Notes: generated by a model not told the origin, from the letters alone. A stretch of 64,000 bases of DNA from Flavobacteriales bacterium (GCA_018401695.1 JAGYKD010000003.1:248001-312000), one strand, 5' to 3'. Counted from the first letter of the stretch, positions 64 through 13,506 are shown. Numbers and translations are program-made.

Positions 64-492
64 TTAAATGGTTATTTCGCTTTGGAAAGCAGCCGCTTTC
101 CCCTCCACTTCCCAGTCTAATTTTATGGTCCATTGTCCGACTGGTGCCTCGTTCATAGATACCATCAGCTGGTTACCTTCGGTTCTGAAAAACAAGTCTT
201 CTTTGGAATTACTGGCCCTGTATAGGTGGCAGTTGAAGCCTTGGTCGGGAAGGGTTTTGCTAAACCAAACTTCCAGCCTTCGAGATTCTTGATTGAAGGA
301 AATTGAGGGCTTATGGCGCTCTTTTAATCCCTGCTTTAAGGCTTCCATTTGCTCGCCATAGCGTACCTCCTGCTCGTAATAATTTTCAACCACAAGATCT
401 ACTTGGGCGTGCTTAACCACGATACCTACCATGGTGGCCATAAACGCCACAAAAAATACCAATACAAGTACAATTCCTTTTCCCCAGTTCAT
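64..492 (-). CDS. ccoH: FixH/CcoH family cbb3 oxidase assembly protein
   Basis: A 142-residue protein with one N-terminal membrane segment (about residues 6-26) and a periplasmic domain. The family signature is visible just after the membrane span: DLVVENYYEQEVRYGEQM, the usual 'D-L-V-x-x-x-Y-Y-E...Y' pattern of FixH. CcoH is a membrane assembly factor that stays bound to cbb3 oxidase and stabilises CcoP in other bacteria. It lies six bases after the ccoG stop and one base before the SafE-like gene, inside the ccoS-to-ccoH operon. Length and topology are normal for the Bacteroidota form. I am confident of the family; the exact function is taken from homologues. Confidence 0.9.
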   Translation of the reverse strand: MNWGKGIVLVLVFFVAFMATMVGIVVKHAQVDLVVENYYEQEVRYGEQMEALKQGLKERHKPSISFNQESRRLEVWFSKTLPDQGFNCHLYRASNSKEDLFFRTEGNQLMVSMNEAPVGQWTIKLDWEVEGKAAAFQSEITI

Positions 493-498
493 AACTTC

Positions 499-1884
499 TT
501 ATTTAAATACCATTGGGCCGGCAAAATCAATGGCCAAATGTTGGCTTTCACCGCCCGCTTGTAAAGTAAAGGAAAGTGGCGTGGTGTGTCCTTTTAGGTC
601 TTTGGGAGCTACCGTAACCATAAAAATCAAATCCCTTTTTTCGCTTCCCCCCAACCATTGGGTGCCTCCTCCGGCCAATTCGAGGCCGACAAAGGAGTCA
701 TCCGGATTCAAAGTAAGGGGAATGGAGTCTCTGGTTTTATTGATTACCTGCAATTTATACAGGTTTTGAATGTTGCCTTCTTGAGTGGTAGTGTACAATT
801 TACCGGGAATTTTGGTAATGGTAGCTTCAACCGCAGACCTTGTGGCCAATAAAACTACAAATATGCCCACCAAAACAGATAAAACGCCGGTATATCCCCA
901 TTTTCGGGCATCCATTTTCGGTTTGGTTCCGTGGGTTATACTTTGTTGAGAGCCATAGCGTACCAAGCCTTCGGGTTTGCCCACTTTGCGCATGATATCG
1001 TCGCAGGCATCTATGCAGGCGGTACAATTGACGCAATCCAATTGTATGCCGTTTCGAATATCAATTCCTGTTGGGCAACTGGCCACACATTTAAAACAAT
1101 TGACGCAATCGCCGGAACCTTCTTTTTTCCCTCGGGGTTCTCCTCGGCTTTCGTCATAAATGACATGGAACGTGTCCGGAGTAATGAGTGCACCTTGCAA
1201 ACGACCGTAGGGACAAATGATGGTGCAAGCAATTTCGCGCAATTGAGAAAACACCAAATAAAAAACCGACGAAAAGGCCAAAAGGGCAATAAAACCACTT
1301 AAATGAGCAGCCGGGCCCTCCCAAACAATCCGTTTCATTTCATCCATGCCCACAATATATGCCATGGCCGTGTGGCCTATGGCTAATGAAATGGCTATGA
1401 ATAGGAAATGCTTAAGGCCTTTGCGCCATGCCTTATCAACATCCCAAGACCTTTTGTTCAACAGCTTTTGCTGACTGGCATTTCCTTCAATGGCGTATTC
1501 AATTTTGCGAAACACCATTTCCATAAACAGCGTTTGCGGGCAAGCCCAACCGCACCAAATGCGGCCAAAGGCAACCGTAAATAAAATGATGAACACAAAG
1601 AAGATAAGCGCAGCAAGGAGCAAATAAATAGTATCCTGTGGCCAAAAAATAACCCCGAACAAAATAAACTTTCGCTCCAAGAAATTTAAAAGGAAAAAGG
1701 GCTCCCCATTGACCCGAAACAGGGGCATGGCGAAAAAAAAGCTGAGCAATATGCCGGTAACCCACACCCTTCTTTTGTGCCATTTGCCGGAAGGTTTAAG
1801 GGGGTACAGCCATTTTCTCTTCCCGTCTTCGGTTACATTGGGAAGCAGGGAGCGATAGTCTTCGGCGTGTTCCAGAAAGTCCAT
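499..1884 (-). CDS. ccoG: CcoG, cytochrome c oxidase accessory ferredoxin-type protein
   Basis: A 461-residue polyferredoxin of the FixG/RdxA/CcoG family, which reduces copper for delivery to cbb3 oxidase in characterised bacteria. Several membrane segments lie between residues 40 and 210. The motif CGWACPQ is at 111-117, ICPYGRLQG at about 223-231, and two ferredoxin clusters follow: C260-x2-C263-x2-C266-x3-C270-P and C284-x2-C287-x2-C290-x3-C294, which should hold two [4Fe-4S] centres. Another membrane span at about 330-348 leads into a C-terminal immunoglobulin-like domain rich in beta strands. It sits seven bases after ccoP and six before ccoH. Nothing is missing from the family pattern. 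Confidence 0.95.
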   Translation of the reverse strand: MDFLEHAEDYRSLLPNVTEDGKRKWLYPLKPSGKWHKRRVWVTGILLSFFFAMPLFRVNGEPFFLLNFLERKFILFGVIFWPQDTIYLLLAALIFFVFIILFTVAFGRIWCGWACPQTLFMEMVFRKIEYAIEGNASQQKLLNKRSWDVDKAWRKGLKHFLFIAISLAIGHTAMAYIVGMDEMKRIVWEGPAAHLSGFIALLAFSSVFYLVFSQLREIACTIICPYGRLQGALITPDTFHVIYDESRGEPRGKKEGSGDCVNCFKCVASCPTGIDIRNGIQLDCVNCTACIDACDDIMRKVGKPEGLVRYGSQQSITHGTKPKMDARKWGYTGVLSVLVGIFVVLLATRSAVEATITKIPGKLYTTTQEGNIQNLYKLQVINKTRDSIPLTLNPDDSFVGLELAGGGTQWLGGSEKRDLIFMVTVAPKDLKGHTTPLSFTLQAGGESQHLAIDFAGPMVFK

Positions 1885-1891
1885 GGGTGTC

Positions 1892-2848
1892 TTATTGAGT
1901 TTGAGCTACCATAGACTCCTCGGTTACTTCCAGGGTGTCGGTGCTTTGCTTTGTGCTGTCTTGGCTTTGCGTTTCCTCCCCGGTCCATAGTTCCCCTTGA
2001 GGCTCCAAGGCATCGGGTGGATTGGTGCCTTCTAAGGTCAAAACAAATGAGGCAATGTTTCTAATTTCTCCGGGAGACATTTGGTCGTTCCAAGGAATCA
2101 TTCCTTTTTCAGGAACACCATAACTAATGGTTCTAAAAACGTTTCTAATTCCTCCCCCATGCAACCAATACAGGTCAGTAAGGTTGGGACCTGACCCTCC
2201 TTCTCCCAAGTTTCCATGGCAGGCTGCGCAATTGTCCAAAAACAATTGTTTTCCTTCGGCTAAGTCTTTGGGGTCATCGGAAAGGGTTACGTTTTCTTCG
2301 CTCATGGCATCGGCCATCTTTTTACGCCATGCATCTTTTATGGCATTGCCTTTTTCCATTTCGGCAGCATATTCTTCGTATTGGGTAGGGCCATACCCCA
2401 ACACCTGATACCAGGCCATGTAAATAACAGCAAAGGCAATGGTGCCCACAAACATCCATTTGAGCCAGGGCGGCATGCCATTATCCATTTCGTGTATGCC
2501 ATCGTAGGAGTGATCTTCCATAATCAAATCTTCCTCCATTTCGATGGGCTTTAGGCCAACGACTCTTTTTCGGTACCAGTCCATTAAGGTCATAGGTTCC
2601 GGCAAAGGCTCAAGTCCTTGGTTTTTCCGCTCCAAATTTTGCAAAGCTCGAATCTCGGTCCGAATTAGCCTCACCTGAGCCACCGCCAAAAGCACCAGCA
2701 CTAAGCCCAAGCTTACCAGCATGAGCAACACCAAATCATCCATGCCTATGCCGGTGGAGGCAACAGAAGCAGGTTCAGTGGAAGCTTCTTGCCCAATCAA
2801 TAAGGAGGGTAGGGCAGAAAGGAAAAGAAAATGCACAAACTTTTTCAT
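1892..2848 (-). CDS. ccoP: Cytochrome c subunit CcoP of cbb3 oxidase (single haem)
   Basis: A 318-residue membrane-anchored cytochrome c that feeds electrons to the cbb3 oxidase. The order is a signal-like N-terminus (1-20), a first membrane span at about 37-58, the CcoP N-terminal domain with its span at about 129-150 (after MPPWLKW), then one cytochrome c domain with CAACHG at 207-212 and the probable axial Met250 in KGMIPW. Proteobacterial CcoP has two CxxCH motifs; only one is present here, which is usual in Bacteroidota. The extra N-terminal span could also be a fused CcoQ-like segment, although a separate ccoQ lies directly upstream. The acidic, Gln-rich tail after residue 290 looks disordered. 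Confidence 0.93.
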   Translation of the reverse strand: MKKFVHFLFLSALPSLLIGQEASTEPASVASTGIGMDDLVLLMLVSLGLVLVLLAVAQVRLIRTEIRALQNLERKNQGLEPLPEPMTLMDWYRKRVVGLKPIEMEEDLIMEDHSYDGIHEMDNGMPPWLKWMFVGTIAFAVIYMAWYQVLGYGPTQYEEYAAEMEKGNAIKDAWRKKMADAMSEENVTLSDDPKDLAEGKQLFLDNCAACHGNLGEGGSGPNLTDLYWLHGGGIRNVFRTISYGVPEKGMIPWNDQMSPGEIRNIASFVLTLEGTNPPDALEPQGELWTGEETQSQDSTKQSTDTLEVTEESMVAQTQ

Positions 2849-2858
2849 GTCGCAGGTT

Positions 2859-3032
2859 TCAAAATTCGTTGGTTTCGTCCTCCAAGGGAATGTTTTTCTT
2901 TCGGTTCATTTCTTCCTTTTTGGCACGTAAAACATACCATCCAAGGCCTAAAAAGAAAAGAAAGAATATACTTAAGGATATGATGGGGTATACCTCAATA
3001 TTGGGTATGCTCCGGGCTACTTCTTTTATCAT
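2859..3032 (-). CDS. ccoQ: CcoQ-like small subunit of cbb3 oxidase
   Basis: A 57-residue reading frame in the gap between ccoNO and ccoP. Its ATG overlaps the ccoNO stop by four bases (ATGA) and its TGA lies 10 bases before the ccoP start. It has one membrane segment (about residues 15-35, rich in I, F and L, ending GLGWYVLRAKK) followed by a basic then acidic tail (ending LEDETNEF). This is the size, topology and position of CcoQ/FixQ, which stabilises the CcoP-CcoNO core. Sequence similarity in this family is weak, so the call rests on position, coupling and shape. Confidence 0.82.
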   Translation of the reverse strand: MIKEVARSIPNIEVYPIISLSIFFLFFLGLGWYVLRAKKEEMNRKKNIPLEDETNEF

Positions 3033-5152
3033 GGCTTTGTGTTTGAAGCAGTTTCTGATACTTTAATATCGGTGCCTAAGCGCTGCAAATAGGCTATGAG
3101 AGCTATAATTTCTCGATTGGCGGGTACCTCAATCTTTTGCTTCATCAAATTGGTGGCAATCGAATCGGCCTGGCGGCTCAAGTCGGCATTGGCTCGTTCA
3201 GCATATCCTTCCGGATAAGGAACGCCCAACTTCTGAAGGGTTTTAATCCGTGTGGCGGTTACGGAGGTATCCAATTCGTTTTCTACCAACCAAGGGTATC
3301 TTGGCATTATGGAACCTGTACTTGTACTGGTGGGATCCAGCATGTGGTTAAAGTGCCACCCGTCGGGATATTTTCCTCCTACCCGGTGTAAGTCAGGACC
3401 GGTGCGCTTAGAACCCCACAAAAAGGGTCGGTCATACACAAATTCGCCCGCCTTGGAATATTCTCCGTAGCGCTCGGTTTCGCTTCGGAAGGGCCGAATC
3501 ATTTGACTGTGGCATCCTACACAGCCCTCGCGTATGTATATGTCTCGGCCATGCAGCTCTAGCGCAGTATATGGCTTTACGCTTTCAATGGTAGGTACGT
3601 TGGATTTGATCAGAAAGGCCGGTACAAATTCTATGACTCCGCCAATCAATATGGCCAAAAAGGTCATTACCGTAAAGAAAACTGGCTTGCGCTCCCATAC
3701 ACGGTGCCAAAACTCTTTGCCACCGCTGCGCATAGGTGCCAAGGCAGGAGCAGAGGCCTCTTCTTCGGCCACAAATTTGCCGGAGTAGGCCGTCTTAACC
3801 AAATTATATACCATTAGGAAAACTCCTATCAAGTAAAGACTACCCCCAATACTCCGCACCATGTGCAAATCCAAAATTTGATTGGTGGTTTCCAAAAAGC
3901 TGTAGGCCAATTGACCGCTTTGCTCAAAGTTCTTCCACATCAAACCTTGCGTAACTGCTGCAGTATACATGGGCAAAGCGTAAAATATAATGCCCATGGT
4001 GCCAATCCAAAAGTGCCAGTTGGCCAAACTTTTGGAGTACAACTTGGTGTTCCACATTTTGGGAACCAACCAGTACAGCATACCAAAGGTCAGGAAGCCG
4101 TTCCAGCCTAAGGCCCCCACGTGTACGTGGGCCACAATCCAGTCGGTAAAGTGGGCTAAGGCATTCACCTCTTTGAGCGAAAGTAGAGGGCCTTCCAAAG
4201 TCGCCATACCGTAAGCGGTAACAGCTACTACCATGAATTTCAAAACCGGATTTTCCCGGACGCGATCCCAGGCGCCACGCAGGGTGAGTAATCCATTGAC
4301 CATACCTCCCCAGGAGGGAGCAATAAGCATTATAGAAAACGCGGTGCCCAAGGCCTGCGCCCATCCCGGCAAAGCAGTATAGAGCAAGTGGTGCGGACCC
4401 GCCCAGATGTAAATAAAAATCAAGGCCCAAAAGTGAACAATGGAGAGTTTGTAGGAGTATACCGGCCGCTCTGCCGCTTTGGGCAAGAAATAATACATAA
4501 GCCCCAAAAAGGGAGTGGTTAAGAAAAAGGCTACCGCATTGTGCCCATACCACCACTGCACCAAGGCATCTTGCACACCGGCATACAGCGAATAACTTTT
4601 CATACCGTCGGCCGGCAGGGCAAGGCTGTTTACCACATGAAGCACCGCAACGGTCACAAAAGAGGCCAGATAAAACCAAATGGCCACATACATGTGACGC
4701 ACCCGGCGCTTTATCATGGTCATGATCATGTTAATGCCAAAGGCCAACCAAACCAAAGTAATGGCAATGTCTATCGGCCACTCCAATTCGGCATACTCTT
4801 TTGAACTGGTATAGCCCAGAGGTAGGGTTATGGCTGCCGATAAAATAATGAGCTGCCAACCCCAAAAGTTAAACCAACTCAAAAACTTACTCCACATCGC
4901 CGCCTTAAGCAACCGGGGCATGGAATAATAAATGCCGGTAAAAATGGCGTTCCCTACAAAGGCAAAAATTACCGCATTGGTGTGCAGGGGACGAATGCGG
5001 CCAAAGGTGGTAAAGGAGGTGTCCATATTGGCCGGTACCCACCACAGCTGAAAAGCCGCAAGCAAGCCCACCAGCATGCCCACAACGCCCCACACAACAG
5101 TGGCAATTAAAAAGGCCTTGACAATTTTGTTGTCGTACTTAAAGTGCTCCAT
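3029..5152 (-). CDS. ccoNO: Fused CcoN-CcoO, catalytic and monohaem subunits of cbb3 oxidase
   Basis: A 707-residue fusion. Residues 1 to about 455 are CcoN, the haem-copper core, with twelve membrane spans expected. Visible ligand regions are RPLHTNAV (His57), WWYGHNAV (His204, copper B), GPHHLLYTALP (His254/255), HVHVGALGWNG (His342/344) and DLHMVRSIGG (His430). After a short linker with a membrane span (about 488-512), CcoO follows, with GRDIYIREGCVGCHSQ giving one c-type haem at 544-548 and the GSIMPRYPWL motif that carries its axial Met. Fusion of N and O is a known Bacteroidota arrangement. The start overlaps the ccoS end by 14 bases and the stop overlaps ccoQ by four, so translation is probably coupled. 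It reduces oxygen at low concentration. Confidence 0.96.
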   Translation of the reverse strand: MEHFKYDNKIVKAFLIATVVWGVVGMLVGLLAAFQLWWVPANMDTSFTTFGRIRPLHTNAVIFAFVGNAIFTGIYYSMPRLLKAAMWSKFLSWFNFWGWQLIILSAAITLPLGYTSSKEYAELEWPIDIAITLVWLAFGINMIMTMIKRRVRHMYVAIWFYLASFVTVAVLHVVNSLALPADGMKSYSLYAGVQDALVQWWYGHNAVAFFLTTPFLGLMYYFLPKAAERPVYSYKLSIVHFWALIFIYIWAGPHHLLYTALPGWAQALGTAFSIMLIAPSWGGMVNGLLTLRGAWDRVRENPVLKFMVVAVTAYGMATLEGPLLSLKEVNALAHFTDWIVAHVHVGALGWNGFLTFGMLYWLVPKMWNTKLYSKSLANWHFWIGTMGIIFYALPMYTAAVTQGLMWKNFEQSGQLAYSFLETTNQILDLHMVRSIGGSLYLIGVFLMVYNLVKTAYSGKFVAEEEASAPALAPMRSGGKEFWHRVWERKPVFFTVMTFLAILIGGVIEFVPAFLIKSNVPTIESVKPYTALELHGRDIYIREGCVGCHSQMIRPFRSETERYGEYSKAGEFVYDRPFLWGSKRTGPDLHRVGGKYPDGWHFNHMLDPTSTSTGSIMPRYPWLVENELDTSVTATRIKTLQKLGVPYPEGYAERANADLSRQADSIATNLMKQKIEVPANREIIALIAYLQRLGTDIKVSETASNTKP

Positions 5153-5324
5153 GGTTTTTTGATTCCGATTGTTTGCTTTGGGTCACCCCATCCTCCTGCA
5201 GCATGCGCAAAGCCGGAGTTTGCGTGTCCTCAAATTGACCTTTTTTTACCGCCGAAAAAAACAGCCACAAAAAAAGACCTGCAACACACAAACTAATTCC
5301 AATCAATACAAGCAATACGTGCAT
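5139..5324 (-). CDS. ccoS: CcoS, cbb3-type oxidase assembly protein
   Basis: A small membrane protein (61 residues from this ATG). One membrane span (about 2-24) is followed by the family signature: AVKKGQFEDTQTPALRMLQED, matching the 'A-x-x-x-G-Q-F-D-D-L-x-T-P-A-x-R-x-L' pattern of CcoS. CcoS is needed to insert haem and copper into CcoN. An in-frame GTG at 5354 would add ten residues, but it lies on top of the likely -7 promoter element (5345-5352), so the ATG at 5324 is preferred. It is the first gene of the ccoS-ccoNO-ccoQ-ccoP-ccoG-ccoH operon. Confidence 0.9.
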   Translation of the reverse strand: MHVLLVLIGISLCVAGLFLWLFFSAVKKGQFEDTQTPALRMLQEDGVTQSKQSESKNHGAL

Positions 5325-5344
5325 ATAATGGGCATTGAACACTC

Positions 5345-5387
5345 CAAAGGTCACCTTCTTTCTAGGCTTCAGGTATGAGCCACGTCA
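5345..5387 (-). promoter_or_regulatory. Crp/Fnr-type promoter of the ccoS-ccoNOQPGH operon
   Basis: On the minus strand a TGA-N6-TCA site (5376-5387, centre 5381.5) precedes GACCTTTG (5352 down to 5345), one base off the Bacteroidota -7 consensus TAnnTTTG. The site centre is 29.5 bp upstream of the first base of the -7 element. That would place it near -41.5, where class II Crp/Fnr activators bind. The same spacing occurs upstream of ccoI and of the gene at 9121. No good -33 element is present, as expected for an activator-dependent promoter. Confidence 0.65.
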
Positions 5388-5479
5388 GGGCAAAAAATGA
5401 TATTTCTCATGTTTTGCGCAAGGGCTTTATTAACAGTTTTTTAGAAAGCCGTTTGGACTGATTTTGGACTGTTTTTTTT

Positions 5480-5630
5480 GGGGCGCCGGGCGGGCCCTTG
5501 CCTTTACTCCAAAGCCCAAAGGCCTTATGCCCCTAAGCCGCCCGAGAGCTTCCTGTGGTCGCTTCGGCCGGCCAAGGGGCATTGGGCCTTTGGGCTTTGG
5601 GGTACCGGCGCGGTCCCTGCGCCTGCATCC
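5480..5630 (+). repeat. GC-rich intergenic stem-loop element A
   Basis: Starts GGGGCGCCGGGCGGGCCC and ends near CGGTCCCTGCGCC. Two 25-base arms, 5509-5533 and 5576-5600, pair with only two mismatches and enclose a 42-base loop rich in CG. It begins straight after a run of eight T and fills the gap between the ccoI stop and the ccoS promoter, so on the minus strand a ccoI transcript would run through a strong hairpin and then eight A. It is one of nine GC-rich intergenic elements in this window (see the elements at 8114, 16753, 19447, 30423, 38279, 38567, 52015 and 55738). Confidence 0.7.
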
Positions 5631-5635
5631 TCCGT

Positions 5636-8020
5636 TTATAGATTGCAGCTGTTTTTTTGACTTGTTCTAGCTATCCACCACGTCCGACTTATAGCCCAGG
5701 CTACAACCGTTAAACTGCTTATGGGCATTAGAATCGCCGCAATTACCGGGTGCAACCATCCGGCCAAGGCAACCCCTACACCTATGGTATTGTAAAGAAT
5801 ACTTAAGGTAAAACACTCTTTTATTATACGTGTAGTTGCTCTACTTAAGCGCAATATGTCGGGAAAGTCGGCTAAGTTTCCCGCCTCTAGAATGGCATCG
5901 CAGGCCGGAAAAAATCCATTCACTGTACCCGTTACCGCCACCCCAATATCGGCTTTTTTTAAGGCCGGGGCGTCGTTTAAACCATCGCCCAAAAAGCAGA
6001 CCTTGGCCCCCTGTTTTTGCACCTGTTCAATGGCTATTACTTTATCTTCGGGTTGTTGCCTAAACAGCAGTTGGGCGTTTGGCCCGGTCCATTTCCCCAA
6101 GGTTTCGGCTTCGCCTTCGTGGTCTCCACTAAGGATGCACAAGGCATGGCTTTTTCCCAACTTTTGCAACATGCCTTGCACCCCCGGTCGATATTGATTC
6201 TGAAAATGAAATCCCCCCAACACACCTTCGGGGCTTGCCAAAAGGGTTCGGCCTGTGCGCCAAGGGTCGGCCGGATGTTGGCTTACCCAGGCATAATGTC
6301 CCAGTTTCCAACCATCCTTGGTTTGCAATCCTTTTCCCGGTATTTCTTCTAAGGCTATGCCATTATGCGTTGCTATGTTTTGGCTTTCCAACCAATGTTT
6401 AATGGCCAAACTCACCGGATGCCGCGATTGCGAAACCATAGAAGCAAGCTGGTGCAGGGCCTCACCGGATAGCGGCTCACCCTTCCATAGCACTTTACCG
6501 GTTTTTCCTTCGGTTAGGGTACCGGTTTTGTCAAAAACCAGGGTTTGCGCATGCGCCAACTGCTCCAAAACCTTGGGTTCGCGCACAAAAAAACGGCGAC
6601 GGGCCAGCAGGCGGGCCATATTGCCCGTAGCAAATGGGGCGCTTAAGGCCAAAGCACAAGGACAAGCAATAATGAGGATAGAGCTTACAATTTCAAGCCA
6701 ACGGTCGGGCGATCGGAAATACCAAAAAATGCCCCCACCCAGGGCTACCAACAATACGGCCAAAATAAACCAGCCGGCTAAGGTATCGGTTAAGCCTTTG
6801 CCCTGAGCTTTAAGGGCATCTTGGGTGCCCTTGTTCCAAAGTCCTTTGAGGTAGCTTTGGTCGGCCCTTTGTTCCAATTGTATGTCAAAAACCTGACCGG
6901 CATTGCGTGCTCCGGCAAAAACCGGCGTTTGGGCATCCACCGAAAGGGCTTCACTTTCTCCGGTTACAAAACTGTAGTCCAAGGAGGCTTTGGGGCTAAG
7001 CAAAGTGCCGTCGGCAGGCACCAAATCGCCCGGAAATAAGCGCAGCTTATCTCCCTTTTTTAGTTGACTAACCGGTCGTTCTACCTCGGAATCGCCTTCA
7101 AGGGCCACGGCCGAAAGCGGGAGGTAAGCGGCCGGGTCCCGATCAAACCTAAGCGAATGAAATATGCGTGCCTGGTACCATTTGGCAAGCAATAGAAAGA
7201 AAATAAGACCGGCCAAGCTGTCGGCATAGCCCGGGCCGGTTTGGGTCAGGATGTCCCAGGCCGTGCGAATAAAAAGCACCAACATGCCTAATGCCAGAGG
7301 GATATCAATATGTACTTGTCGGTTTTTTATGGCCAACCAAGCTGTTTTGAGGTAATCGGCTCCGGAAAAAAACAGCAAAGGCAGGCAAAAAGCCAGGTTT
7401 AAGTATTGAAAACTCTGATAAAGCAAAGGGTCTTCGGATTCGGTAAAGCCTAAATATTCCGGAAAACTCAAGAGCATCACATTCCCTAAGGAAAACCCGG
7501 CCACGCCCAGCTGTTGTATTAAGGTATGGTTGCCTATAGCTTTTTTGCTGTTTTGTGCCTGGTCGGGTTGGGGTGGATAGCCAATGCTGCTGAGTAATAG
7601 GGCGAGTTCGGAGGCTTTGATGGCCTTGGGGTTTACCCAAAGGTCTATGGTTCGGTTGCTTAAATTGGCTTCTGCGGATAGGATTCCGGGGTGCAATTCG
7701 GGAAGTCGGTCAAGCAACCAAATGCACGAAGCGCAATGCATGCCGGGGAGATACCAGCGGGCACGTGCTTTATCTTCTTGCCTAAATTTCCAAACCGAGT
7801 TTAGGTGCTCCGGGGCATCCATCCAGGCAAAACGGGCCTTTTCGGGGCGGTTGGAGGAGCGCTCCGGAAGGGAATAATAGGCTTCTAAACCGCTGTGATG
7901 CAGCATATGGTATACCTCGGCGCAGGCTGTGCAACAAAAAAGTTCTTTTTCTTTTTGGACCGGGCTAGCACCAATAGGGTCGCCACAATGAAGACAGGGT
8001 TGTTCGGGCGCATGCTCCAT
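5636..8020 (-). CDS. ccoI: Copper-translocating P-type ATPase of the CcoI/FixI type
   Basis: A 794-residue P1B-type ATPase (from the ATG at 8020) that exports copper for cbb3 oxidase assembly. The N-terminus has a cysteine-rich zinc-ribbon-like segment (PCLHCGD...FCCTACAEVYHML) typical of CcoI, then a heavy-metal domain with GMHCASC. The membrane core carries the CPC metal site in IIACPCALALSAP. The phosphorylation motif is DKTGTLTEGKTG and the hinge GDGLNDAPALKKADIG. An in-frame TTG at 8050 would add ten residues but lies upstream of the likely -7 element at 8026-8033. The gene has its own promoter and is followed by GC-rich element A, so it is probably a separate unit from ccoS-ccoH although both serve the same oxidase. 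Confidence 0.95.
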   Translation of the reverse strand: MEHAPEQPCLHCGDPIGASPVQKEKELFCCTACAEVYHMLHHSGLEAYYSLPERSSNRPEKARFAWMDAPEHLNSVWKFRQEDKARARWYLPGMHCASCIWLLDRLPELHPGILSAEANLSNRTIDLWVNPKAIKASELALLLSSIGYPPQPDQAQNSKKAIGNHTLIQQLGVAGFSLGNVMLLSFPEYLGFTESEDPLLYQSFQYLNLAFCLPLLFFSGADYLKTAWLAIKNRQVHIDIPLALGMLVLFIRTAWDILTQTGPGYADSLAGLIFFLLLAKWYQARIFHSLRFDRDPAAYLPLSAVALEGDSEVERPVSQLKKGDKLRLFPGDLVPADGTLLSPKASLDYSFVTGESEALSVDAQTPVFAGARNAGQVFDIQLEQRADQSYLKGLWNKGTQDALKAQGKGLTDTLAGWFILAVLLVALGGGIFWYFRSPDRWLEIVSSILIIACPCALALSAPFATGNMARLLARRRFFVREPKVLEQLAHAQTLVFDKTGTLTEGKTGKVLWKGEPLSGEALHQLASMVSQSRHPVSLAIKHWLESQNIATHNGIALEEIPGKGLQTKDGWKLGHYAWVSQHPADPWRTGRTLLASPEGVLGGFHFQNQYRPGVQGMLQKLGKSHALCILSGDHEGEAETLGKWTGPNAQLLFRQQPEDKVIAIEQVQKQGAKVCFLGDGLNDAPALKKADIGVAVTGTVNGFFPACDAILEAGNLADFPDILRLSRATTRIIKECFTLSILYNTIGVGVALAGWLHPVIAAILMPISSLTVVAWAISRTWWIARTSQKNSCNL

Positions 8021-8025
8021 GGGGT

Positions 8026-8068
8026 CAAATGTCAGGATTTGGAGGTTCAAAAAGCATGATTTTGGTCA
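8026..8068 (-). promoter_or_regulatory. Crp/Fnr-type promoter of ccoI
   Basis: On the minus strand a TGA-N6-TCA site (8057-8068, centre 8062.5) lies in an extended palindrome, CATGA-N6-TCATG. It is followed by GACATTTG (8033 down to 8026), one base off TAnnTTTG. Centre to first base of the -7 element is 29.5 bp, identical to the ccoS promoter. The ATG at 8020 is six bases past the -7 element, giving a very short or absent leader. Confidence 0.68.
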
Positions 8069-8113
8069 TGCTGTGCAAAAGAAGGTCAACCACAGGAAGC
8101 TGCCTATGGAAGA

Positions 8114-8260
8114 CCGGGCCAGGGACAGCAGCGGCAGCCCGGAGGAGCCGGCCTTTGCTAGGGCGCAGCGGCCGGGCGGAGCGCAGCAAGCCCCGGGGGC
8201 TGCTTGCCCTAGCATAGGCCGGAGCCGAGGACTATAGCGGATGGCCCGTTTGGCCCCCAG
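8114..8260 (-). repeat. GC-rich intergenic stem-loop element B
   Basis: Lies between the divergent ccoI and Crp/Fnr genes. Arms 8148-8164 and 8206-8222 (17 bases each) pair with one mismatch. Read on the minus strand it contains GGCCATCCGCTATAG and a core of the form CGGGGCTTGC-x3-GCTCCGCCCGG. The core is shared with the element at 52015-52160, where the flanking helix has a different sequence but still pairs. Apparent open frames through it are products of high GC content, not genes. Confidence 0.7.
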
Positions 8261-8282
8261 AACGTTCAAATATCATTTATAC

Positions 8283-8313
8283 TTGCAAGCTTCCAACCGA
8301 AGTGCTACATTTA
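8283..8313 (+). promoter_or_regulatory. Probable promoter of the Crp/Fnr gene at 8338
   Basis: TTG at 8283-8285, a 20-base spacer, then TACATTTA at 8306-8313 (one base off TAnnTTTG). Transcription would start near 8320, which favours the ATG at 8338 over the GTG at 8302. Confidence 0.45.
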
Positions 8314-8337
8314 CCCCGAGCGCAACAACAACCTATT

Positions 8338-9045
8338 ATGAAGAAACTTGCCGATACGTTTCACTGTGCAGATTGCAAGGCACGGCACAGGTCGGTATTT
8401 AACCAAATTCCCTTAGATGCGGTAGATGAAGTAGATGTTGGAAAAACCTGCTTTCAGTTTAAGCGGGGGGAAAGCATTTTTTACGAAGGGCATACGCCTC
8501 AAGGGGTGTATTGCATTGAGACGGGCAAAGTAAAGATTTACCGCACCGGTCCTGACGGCAAAGACCAAATTGTGCGTCTGGCGCGAGAGGGAGATATGGT
8601 GGGTTATCGATCCTTGCTTAGCGGAGAAAAATACAGCAGTACCGCTTCGTGTTTGGATGAAACCACTGTCTGCTTTGTTCCAAAAACCCAACTAATGAGC
8701 TTGTTTGCCCAACAAAGTTGTCTTTCCATGCGGTTTATGCAACAGGCTTGTCATGAACTTGGCGAAGCAGGAAAGCTTATTACCAATCTGGCTCAAAAGA
8801 GTGTTCGGGAACGCATGGCCGAGATGCTGCTCATGCTCAAAGAAACCTTTGGTCTTACCGAAGATAACGCCTTAGATGTGCGCCTTTCGCGCGAGGAATT
8901 GTCCACCTTGGCAGGCACTGCAACGGAATCCTGCATAAGGGTGTTGTCTGATTTTCAACAGGAAGGCATGATTCGTTTGGACGGCAAACGGATAGTGCTG
9001 CAAAGCATTCCCCAGTTGGTGCGTACAGGAAGGGTAGAGGAGTAG
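8338..9045 (+). CDS. Crp/Fnr family transcriptional regulator
   Basis: A 235-residue cAMP-receptor-like regulator: cyclic-nucleotide-type beta-roll (about 30-120), dimerisation helix (about 125-150) and winged helix (about 160-225). The recognition helix region reads LAGTATESCIRVLSDF; the Glu and Arg that contact TGA half-sites in Fnr (E-x-x-S-R) are kept, with Ile in place of Ser. The N-terminus has FHCADCKARH, a C-x2-C pair placed like two of the four iron-sulfur cysteines of E. coli FNR, but the cysteine expected six residues further on is Ser. A full [4Fe-4S] oxygen sensor is therefore not evident. It is divergent from ccoI, so it is the likely regulator of the TGA-N6-TCA promoters of the cbb3 genes (inference). 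Confidence 0.88.
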   Translation: MKKLADTFHCADCKARHRSVFNQIPLDAVDEVDVGKTCFQFKRGESIFYEGHTPQGVYCIETGKVKIYRTGPDGKDQIVRLAREGDMVGYRSLLSGEKYSSTASCLDETTVCFVPKTQLMSLFAQQSCLSMRFMQQACHELGEAGKLITNLAQKSVRERMAEMLLMLKETFGLTEDNALDVRLSREELSTLAGTATESCIRVLSDFQQEGMIRLDGKRIVLQSIPQLVRTGRVEE

Positions 9046-9068
9046 CCTGCATTTTTTCATTTCTTTTC

Positions 9069-9112
9069 CTGATTTTAATCATGGTGTATGATTTTTGTCT
9101 TGATTAGCTTTG
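9069..9112 (+). promoter_or_regulatory. Crp/Fnr-type promoter of the second regulator gene
   Basis: The palindrome TGATTTTAATCA (9070-9081, centre 9075.5) is a near match to the Fnr consensus TTGAT-N4-ATCAA. It is followed by an exact -7 element, TAGCTTTG, at 9105-9112. Centre to first base of the -7 element is 29.5 bp, as at the two cbb3 promoters. Transcription would begin only a few bases before the ATG at 9121. Confidence 0.65.
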
Positions 9113-9120
9113 TGCTAAGC

Positions 9121-9750
9121 ATGGCAGAAACCACACAAATACGCAAGTTGCCATTTCATCTTTCGGGCTTTGCTTCTTTGGCCGGCGAAACGGTGCACCG
9201 AAAAATTACGGTGGACCGCCAATGTTGGTCTGGAGTAAAGGAGTTGGAACCCGAATCGGGAGCTGGTTATCGCTTGATTCGTGGGCGGATAGAACTATGC
9301 CACAAAGATGGGGCTTGCCTTTGGTTGGGGCCGGGCGACTTGTTTGGATTTGGTCATTGGCCTTTTATGGCGCCCGATTGGAAGCATGTAGTGGCCCGTT
9401 CTAGTTGCCTAGACTGCCTGGTAGAGGAAGATGTAAAAAGCATAAGCGTGGAAGCGCCTCATTTCGTGTTTAGTGCCATGCAAGAGGTGCTCCGGCAAAT
9501 TGCCGAGGTGGAGAAGCAAGCGGTTATGCTTCAAGGCGTAGTACAAGACGATCAGCTGTTTGCTTTGTTGCAAAGTTTGGCCCGCAAATTTGGGAGAGAT
9601 TCCGAAGGCTTTTTGAATGTGCAAGCCAGTAATCAGGAGTTGGCACAATATATGGGCGTTAGCCTGAGTACGCTAAGGCGTGGATTGCTTAGGTTAGAGC
9701 GAGCCGGCAAGGTATTTAGACGCCGTGGGCGTCTTAAAACCATACGCTGA
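9121..9750 (+). CDS. Crp/Fnr-like regulator with divergent sensor domain
   Basis: About 209 residues from the ATG at 9121; an in-frame ATG at 9088 would add eleven residues but overlaps the promoter. Residues 20-110 resemble a cyclic-nucleotide-type beta-roll (LIRGRIELC, then LGPGDLFGFG) with no conserved nucleotide pocket visible. A long helix follows, then a Crp-type winged helix (NQELAQYMGVSLSTLRRGLLRLERAGKV). The very basic end, FRRRGRLKTIR, is unusual. It follows the first Crp/Fnr gene, carries its own Fnr-like site, and ends three bases before the convergent thiL stop. It may be a secondary regulator in a cascade. What it senses is unknown. Confidence 0.75.
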   Translation: MAETTQIRKLPFHLSGFASLAGETVHRKITVDRQCWSGVKELEPESGAGYRLIRGRIELCHKDGACLWLGPGDLFGFGHWPFMAPDWKHVVARSSCLDCLVEEDVKSISVEAPHFVFSAMQEVLRQIAEVEKQAVMLQGVVQDDQLFALLQSLARKFGRDSEGFLNVQASNQELAQYMGVSLSTLRRGLLRLERAGKVFRRRGRLKTIR

Positions 9751-12741: not shown

Positions 12742-13506
12742 ATGTTGAACATCAAAAACCTCCATGCCGAAATCGAAGGCAAGGAGATTTTAAAAGGCTT
12801 GAACCTAAACGTCAAGCCCGGAGAAGTGCATGCCATAATGGGGCCAAATGGTTCGGGCAAGTCTACCTTGGCCTCTGTTTTGGCAGGCAAAGAAGCATAT
12901 GAAGTAACTCAAGGCCAAGTGCACTTTAATGGGAAAAATTTGCTGGAAATGGCACCCGAAGAAAGAGCCGGAGACGGTTTGTTTTTGGCCTTCCAGTATC
13001 CTGTAGAAATTCCCGGTGTTTCTATGATGAACTTTTTAAAAACCTCCATTCAGGAAGTGCGCAAATACAGAGGTCAAGACCCTTTGAACGCCAAAGACTT
13101 TCTAAAACTGGTTAAGGAAAGGCAAGCTCTGGTAGAATTGGATAAAAAACTGGCCAATCGTTCCGTAAACGAAGGTTTTTCAGGCGGAGAGAAAAAGCGC
13201 AATGAAGTTTTTCAAATGGCTATGTTGGAACCAACCCTTGCCATTTTGGACGAAACCGATTCCGGGCTAGACATTGACGCCCTGCGCATTGTGGCAGATG
13301 GGGTAAATAAACTCCGCAGCCCAAGCAATGCTTTTGTGGTCATTACCCACTACCAAAGATTGTTGGATTATATCGTGCCCGACGTAGTGCATGTGCTGTA
13401 CCAGGGCAGAATTGTGAAAACAGGCCCCAAAGAGCTGGCCTTAGAATTGGAAGAGAAAGGCTACGACTGGCTAAAACTCTCCGCAACCGAGCAAATTGAA
13501 GGATAA
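12742..13506 (+). CDS. sufC: SufC, ABC-type ATPase of the SUF complex
   Basis: A 254-residue ABC ATPase powering the SufBC2D scaffold. Walker A is GPNGSGKST (about 34-42), the ABC signature is SGGEKKRNE, Walker B is LAILDETDSGLD and the switch histidine lies in VVITHYQRLL. The SGGEKKRNE form and the DETDSGLD motif are specific to SufC rather than to transporter ATPases. There are no membrane segments. It ends two bases before the preferred sufD start. Confidence 0.97.
   Translation: MLNIKNLHAEIEGKEILKGLNLNVKPGEVHAIMGPNGSGKSTLASVLAGKEAYEVTQGQVHFNGKNLLEMAPEERAGDGLFLAFQYPVEIPGVSMMNFLKTSIQEVRKYRGQDPLNAKDFLKLVKERQALVELDKKLANRSVNEGFSGGEKKRNEVFQMAMLEPTLAILDETDSGLDIDALRIVADGVNKLRSPSNAFVVITHYQRLLDYIVPDVVHVLYQGRIVKTGPKELALELEEKGYDWLKLSATEQIEG

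Follow-up and report, generated by a model that had tools for sequence, protein, structure and literature searches.

In a 64,000-nucleotide stretch of DNA from Flavobacteriales bacterium (GCA_018401695.1 JAGYKD010000003.1:248001-312000; hereafter, the window), the promoters of the cbb3 oxidase operon ccoS-ccoNO, of ccoI, and of a Crp/Fnr-like gene (crp2) each carry a TGA-N6-TCA site exactly 23 nt upstream of an nAnnTTTG element. This pattern is real, well conserved, and functionally coherent. Another Crp/Fnr gene, fnr1, lies between ccoI and crp2, and we consider it likely that its product, a predicted Fnr-type iron-sulfur activator, acts in the class II manner at sigma-A promoters, as a lone dimer at most targets and as an abutting pair at ccoS. 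Class II activation by Fnr is a known mechanism, described in textbooks for Proteobacteria; what is new here is a phylum-wide layout of tandem sites 22 bp apart and an altered set of cysteines in the regulator.

Three promoters in the window share one exact spacing

A pattern search of the window located exact TGA-N6-TCA sites at 5376-5387, 8057-8068, and 9070-9081, with octamers at 5352-5345 (-), 8033-8026 (-), and 9105-9112 (+). The 23-nt gap corresponds to 29.5 bp between the centre of the site and the first base of the element; a preliminary description, made from the sequence alone, had given the same sites, elements, and spacing, all of which we re-found exactly. In Flavobacterium psychrophilum, TAnnTTTG was measured at -12 to -5 (PMC9723704), and because of this position and the 23-nt gap, the site centres are predicted at -41.5, in agreement with the class II placement that had been proposed. 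With the element position taken from a relative, the sites have the class II arrangement of an activator site at about -41.5 that overlaps the -35 region. The elements likewise match the TAnnTTTG -7 element of sigma-A promoters, with A at -11 and TTTG imposed by the search pattern. The sites and elements are as follows:

5376..5387, minus strand: proximal Fnr-type site of the ccoS-ccoNO operon promoter, TGACGTGGCTCA, predicted centre -41.5
5398..5409, minus strand: distal tandem site of the ccoS promoter, TGAGAAATATCA on the minus strand (TGATATTTCTCA as read in the window), predicted centre -63.5
5345..5352, minus strand: -7 element GACCTTTG of the ccoS promoter, predicted +1 at 5340
8057..8068, minus strand: single Fnr-type site of the ccoI promoter, TGACCAAAATCA, predicted centre -41.5
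8026..8033, minus strand: -7 element GACATTTG of ccoI, predicted +1 at 8021
9070..9081, plus strand: single Fnr-type site of crp2, predicted centre -41.5
9105..9112, plus strand: -7 element TAGCTTTG of crp2, predicted +1 at 9117

The preliminary description overlooked the distal site at the ccoS promoter, which lies upstream of the proximal site at a distance of exactly 22 bp. The proximal site is kept in a relative with 99%-identical CcoNO. The ccoI gene is apparently near-leaderless (8018-8033), with the predicted +1 one nucleotide before the ATG; a close relative is laid out alike.

By itself, TGA-N6-TCA is about as frequent in the window as expected by chance (14 seen, 12 expected). The gap of 23 nt is common to four oriented sites, namely those of the three promoters and one at 12900, inside a sufC-like gene, where the match is probably due to chance. 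Across 400 dinucleotide shuffles of the window, one gap was common to three sites in a single shuffle and to four sites in none, which upholds the earlier claim that the identical spacing is unlikely by chance.

The spacing defines a genome-wide set of promoters

When the gap to TAnnTTTG was left free between 8 and 38 nt in the 3.0-Mb genome, 8 of 19 matches fell at 23 nt (0.37 expected per gap, P ~6e-9), and the remaining 11 were scattered over 30 gaps. Matches to nAnnTTTG at gap 23 numbered 15 in the whole genome (2.2 expected, P ~2e-8). A reversed-pattern control with TTTG alone (21 vs. 2) was discarded as exaggerating the signal; TTTG alone gives about 9.5 expected matches per gap in this genome, and we therefore relied on stricter elements and gap profiles.

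Thirteen promoters were kept once intragenic and gene-less matches had been taken out (L002, L007, L012, L013, L017, L018, L019, and L021 were dropped as intragenic or having no fitting nearby gene start), and all 13 have a start codon shortly downstream of the element. Besides the ccoS operon, ccoI, and crp2, these promoters precede genes for UspA, a cytochrome c, DUF2147, a 2OG-Fe(II) oxygenase, a small membrane protein, and a 1-Cys peroxiredoxin; a homogentisate-dioxygenase-like gene with 4-HPPD after it; a rhodanese operon that includes a Dps-like gene; an MBL-rhodanese/thioredoxin/SQR-like operon (persulfide/sulfide oxidation); and an HlyD-type efflux operon. Since the 13 promoters lie across the genome and many are non-respiratory, the regulon is genome-wide. 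The local cbb3 regulon of the preliminary description therefore holds as regards its cbb3 targets and the Fnr-type regulator next door, but "local" is too narrow; the genome scan that it suggested returned many promoters that are not respiratory.

A -33 element is absent from 13 of 13 promoters, and the base at -12 is T in eight, G in four, and C in one. Both G at -12 and the missing -33 element had been taken as marks of the two cbb3 promoters; however, the former also occurs in two non-cbb3 promoters and the latter is common to the whole set, so neither sets the cbb3 pair apart.

The site at -41.5 could instead be a repressor or dual site at which the regulator blocks sigma-A, and the dioxygenase and sulfide-oxidation targets would be plausible as genes repressed at low oxygen. 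Repressor sites are usually variable in position, whereas here the gap is fixed and the position is exactly that of class II activation; the lack of a -33 element throughout also speaks against repression. Furthermore, the genes with tandem sites across the phylum (see below) are typically low-oxygen-induced (cbb3, hemN), and oxygen limitation induces cbb3 in F. psychrophilum (PMC9723704). Together, these points make repression very unlikely.

The sites are conserved in related genomes

Conservation in related genomes, on which the preliminary description had staked its proposal, was found: 12 of the 13 promoters were recovered in the closest relative (G007). Between orthologous promoters of the two genomes, the unselected -7 positions changed in 0/36 cases, compared with 37/276 for spacer positions (P = 0.008). 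A same-gap site also lies upstream of ccoI in G007, G011, G004, and G014, and before crp2 or a downstream crp2-like gene in G007, G004, G001, and G008; the Fnr1 proteins of the more distant family members G004, G014, G001, and G008 have 53-64% identity. G011 and G010, which have a more distant Fnr, retain the same-gap site before ccoS. In the family, genomes whose Fnr1 homologue bears the cysteines had 85 gap-23 matches (28.5 expected), and those without such a homologue had 29 (17.1 expected).

Two further observations concern the distribution of these promoters. G008 (L075) has no cbb3, yet it retains fnr1, crp2, and the crp2 site. On contig G012:C34, eight gap-23 promoters surround a Crp/Fnr gene without N-terminal cysteines (~8-31 kb, part in L077).

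Tandem sites 22 bp apart recur across the phylum

We collected 80 named Bacteroidota-type loci around Fnr1 homologues from one scan. Their gap profile has 54 matches at 23 nt, 24 at 24, 36 at 45, and 12 at 46, with 0-5 at each other gap; 58 of the 80 loci have such a promoter, and 32 have a tandem. The distances between TGA-N6-TCA sites are equally sharp, with 52 pairs at 22 bp and no more than two at each of the other distances up to 63; an inverted control word gave no pairs at 22 bp in these loci. Where the proximal site is at gap 24, the distal site is at gap 46; therefore, it is the distance between the sites that is fixed, not the distance to the promoter. Among 296 phylum genomes, 31 contain the full tandem promoter pattern, with 76 occurrences in total (<1 expected by chance), and the reversed pattern occurs in none of the 296. 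A 69-bp pair peak in Chitinophaga was rejected as a site, as it is the ccoS start codon region.

These profiles also decide whether the shared spacing could arise from short, frequent words that line up by chance. The words are indeed short, and intragenic chance matches do occur (e.g., at 12900); nevertheless, the excess is large at one exact gap in the genome, the 80 loci, and the phylum, and the neighbouring gaps are near-empty. The gap profiles refute chance, leaving it next to no probability.

Downstream of the tandem promoters of the phylum, BLAST identified ccoS/ccoNO and ccoI, and reading of the sequence alone adds uspA, hemN, hemA, ldhA-like, nosZ-like, and hsp20 genes. Genomes that have tandem sites could not be told apart from the others by the presence or absence of an Fnr homologue, because Crp/Fnr homologues occur in nearly all of them. 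Some tandem promoters adjoin a gene for a cysteine Fnr (L185, L186), and several outside this family adjoin one for a fusion of receiver, cNMP, and Crp helix-turn-helix (HTH) domains (~355 aa, with an E-T-V/I-S-R helix; L192, L193, L196, L197, L199). Because the neighbouring regulator differs in this way, the operator layout seems to have been retained through a change of sensor, with adjacency as the only link. There is about an even chance that Bacteroidota have one low-oxygen operator grammar, in which two abutting TGA-N6-TCA sites 22 bp apart, the lower at -41.5, would be read cooperatively by two dimers, and in which the sensor would be swappable between a cysteine Fnr and a two-component receiver-Crp fusion.

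Fnr1 is the probable reader of the sites

Domain search and structural modelling identified Fnr1 as a protein with the Crp/Fnr fold and an HTH_Crp domain. The AlphaFold model (pLDDT 90) is near Porphyromonas gingivalis 2GAU and Aliivibrio fischeri holo-FNR (TM 0.83 to the latter). Among the 80 Fnr1 homologues, C10 and C13 (CxxC), C59, and C112 are present in essentially all, and E197, I200, and R201 are present in all that cover these positions; C38 is present in 69 of 81 sequences. Fnr1 C10, C13, and C112 align with Escherichia coli FNR C20, C23, and C122. A variant iron-sulfur ligand set with C38 or C59 may reasonably be proposed. The NCBIfam Fnr model NF008365 scored 84.6 bits on Fnr1, below its cut-off of 228.

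The sites might also be read by another Crp/Fnr protein, with Fnr1 as a bystander. This genome encodes three Crp-type HTH proteins, including Crp2, whose own gene is preceded by one of the sites, and a third paralogue at G000:C1:600365; in other genomes, receiver-Crp fusions adjoin the same kind of promoter. However, Crp2 has no recognisable effector pocket, and its recognition helix lacks the E-x3-R that is kept in all Fnr1 homologues, and it is therefore likely a target and not a reader. In addition, the sites are concentrated near Fnr1 homologues, and genomes that have Fnr1 show a larger gap-23 excess. We thus regard another reader as unlikely, and Fnr1 is the protein considered below.

Fnr1 (8338-9042) would be an Fnr-type, probably iron-sulfur, oxygen-responsive activator. 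At low oxygen, an Fnr1 dimer would occupy TGA-N6-TCA centred at -41.5 and recruit sigma-A RNA polymerase to promoters with an nAnnTTTG -7 element and without a -33 element. In this way, it would turn on the cbb3 operon, the CcoI copper ATPase, and about 10 further promoters (UspA, cytochrome c, sulfide/persulfide oxidation, peroxiredoxin, and dioxygenases); activation of the neighbouring crp2 would add a feed-forward step. At ccoS, the two sites abut, with a separation of 22 bp or about two helical turns, and each would bind one dimer, probably in a cooperative manner; the pair would make the response of the structural oxidase operon stronger or more switch-like.

Several observations weigh against this proposal. 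Fnr1 has a serine at the position of E. coli FNR C29, the fourth cluster ligand, and so departs from the four-cysteine set of FNR; C38, a candidate replacement for C29, is missing from about 12 of the 81 sequences. The receiver-Crp fusions beside tandem promoters mean that Fnr1 is not the sole possible reader, and a weak gap-23 excess also appears in relatives without a detected Fnr1 (G002 and G006, the latter partly through coding sites that G008 also has). Chance would account for about two of the 15 genome matches to nAnnTTTG at gap 23, and predicted targets such as the dioxygenases are not obvious low-oxygen genes.

Genes and other features of the locus

The cbb3 genes and the two regulator genes are arranged as follows:

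67..492, minus strand: ccoH (FixH), Pfam
502..1884, minus strand: ccoG (FixG-like), Pfam
1895..2848, minus strand: ccoP, Pfam FixP_N and cytochrome c
3032..5152, minus strand: fused ccoN-ccoO (COX1 and FixO), Pfam
5142..5324, minus strand: ccoS (FixS family), first gene of the operon, Pfam PF03597, predicted leader of ~16 nt
5639..8020, minus strand: ccoI, copper-type P-ATPase for cbb3 assembly, Pfam
8338..9042, plus strand: fnr1, Crp/Fnr regulator with Crp/Fnr domains, cysteines, and recognition helix E197-x3-R201
9121..9747, plus strand: crp2, second Crp/Fnr-like gene with a degenerate effector domain, no cNMP_binding match, and no E-x3-R

A candidate constitutive promoter of fnr1 lies at 8283-8313 (TTG, 20 nt, TACATTTA). 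It has no Fnr-type site at -41.5, and thus no autoregulation is visible. Between ccoI and the ccoS promoter (5492-5617), inverted repeat arms of 54 nt that are 80% complementary and 18 nt apart may form a strong hairpin or REP-like element. Another inverted repeat, with G+C-rich 17-nt arms 41 nt apart, is located between ccoI and fnr1 (8148-8222).

Comparison with known systems

In the open-access literature, we found no Fnr-type operator or low-oxygen regulon of this layout described for Bacteroidota (most subscription papers lay outside this scope). Bacteroidota are a dominant phylum with their own promoter code, and an exact code of this kind, readable from sequence, allows low-oxygen regulons to be predicted in many uncultured genomes.

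The closest parallel at the promoter is class II activation by E. coli FNR, with which the present system shares a dimer site at -41.5, TGA/TCA half sites, the E-x3-R helix, and three of the four cluster cysteines. In contrast to E. coli, the polymerase site is the Bacteroidota sigma-A element TAnnTTTG, conservation does not extend to the outer TT..AA of TTGAT-N4-ATCAA, and the serine at the C29 equivalent is accompanied in most homologues by the extra Cys38.

The setting of the gene resembles control of cbb3 by Fnr1, FixK, and Anr in Proteobacteria, where fnr may stand beside the cbb3 operon, as does Herbaspirillum seropedicae fnr1 next to fixNOP (PMC5934665). In that species, cbb3 and uspA are both induced, and the class II promoter examined has its site near -42 (PMC5934665). 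The authors sought tandem Fnr sites in co-activated promoters and found none (PMC5934665), whereas the fixed 22-bp tandem is common here.

A 2021 metatranscriptome study predicted carbon sensing for MalR-like Crp/Fnr homologues of Flavobacteriales and Ignavibacteria (PMC8510549). The taxa and the protein superfamily are alike; however, the CxxC homologues described here adjoin oxygen-type genes, which may put the carbon-sensing assignment of Crp/Fnr homologues in these groups in question.

The tandem provides a clean test case for the action of two abutting activator dimers on a polymerase other than that of E. coli. From general knowledge, its nearest counterpart is the class III promoter of CRP, which likewise combines a class II dimer with a second dimer upstream; in the layout described here, unlike in class III promoters, the second site is strictly fixed at 22 bp, with its predicted centre at -63.5, and directly abuts the first.

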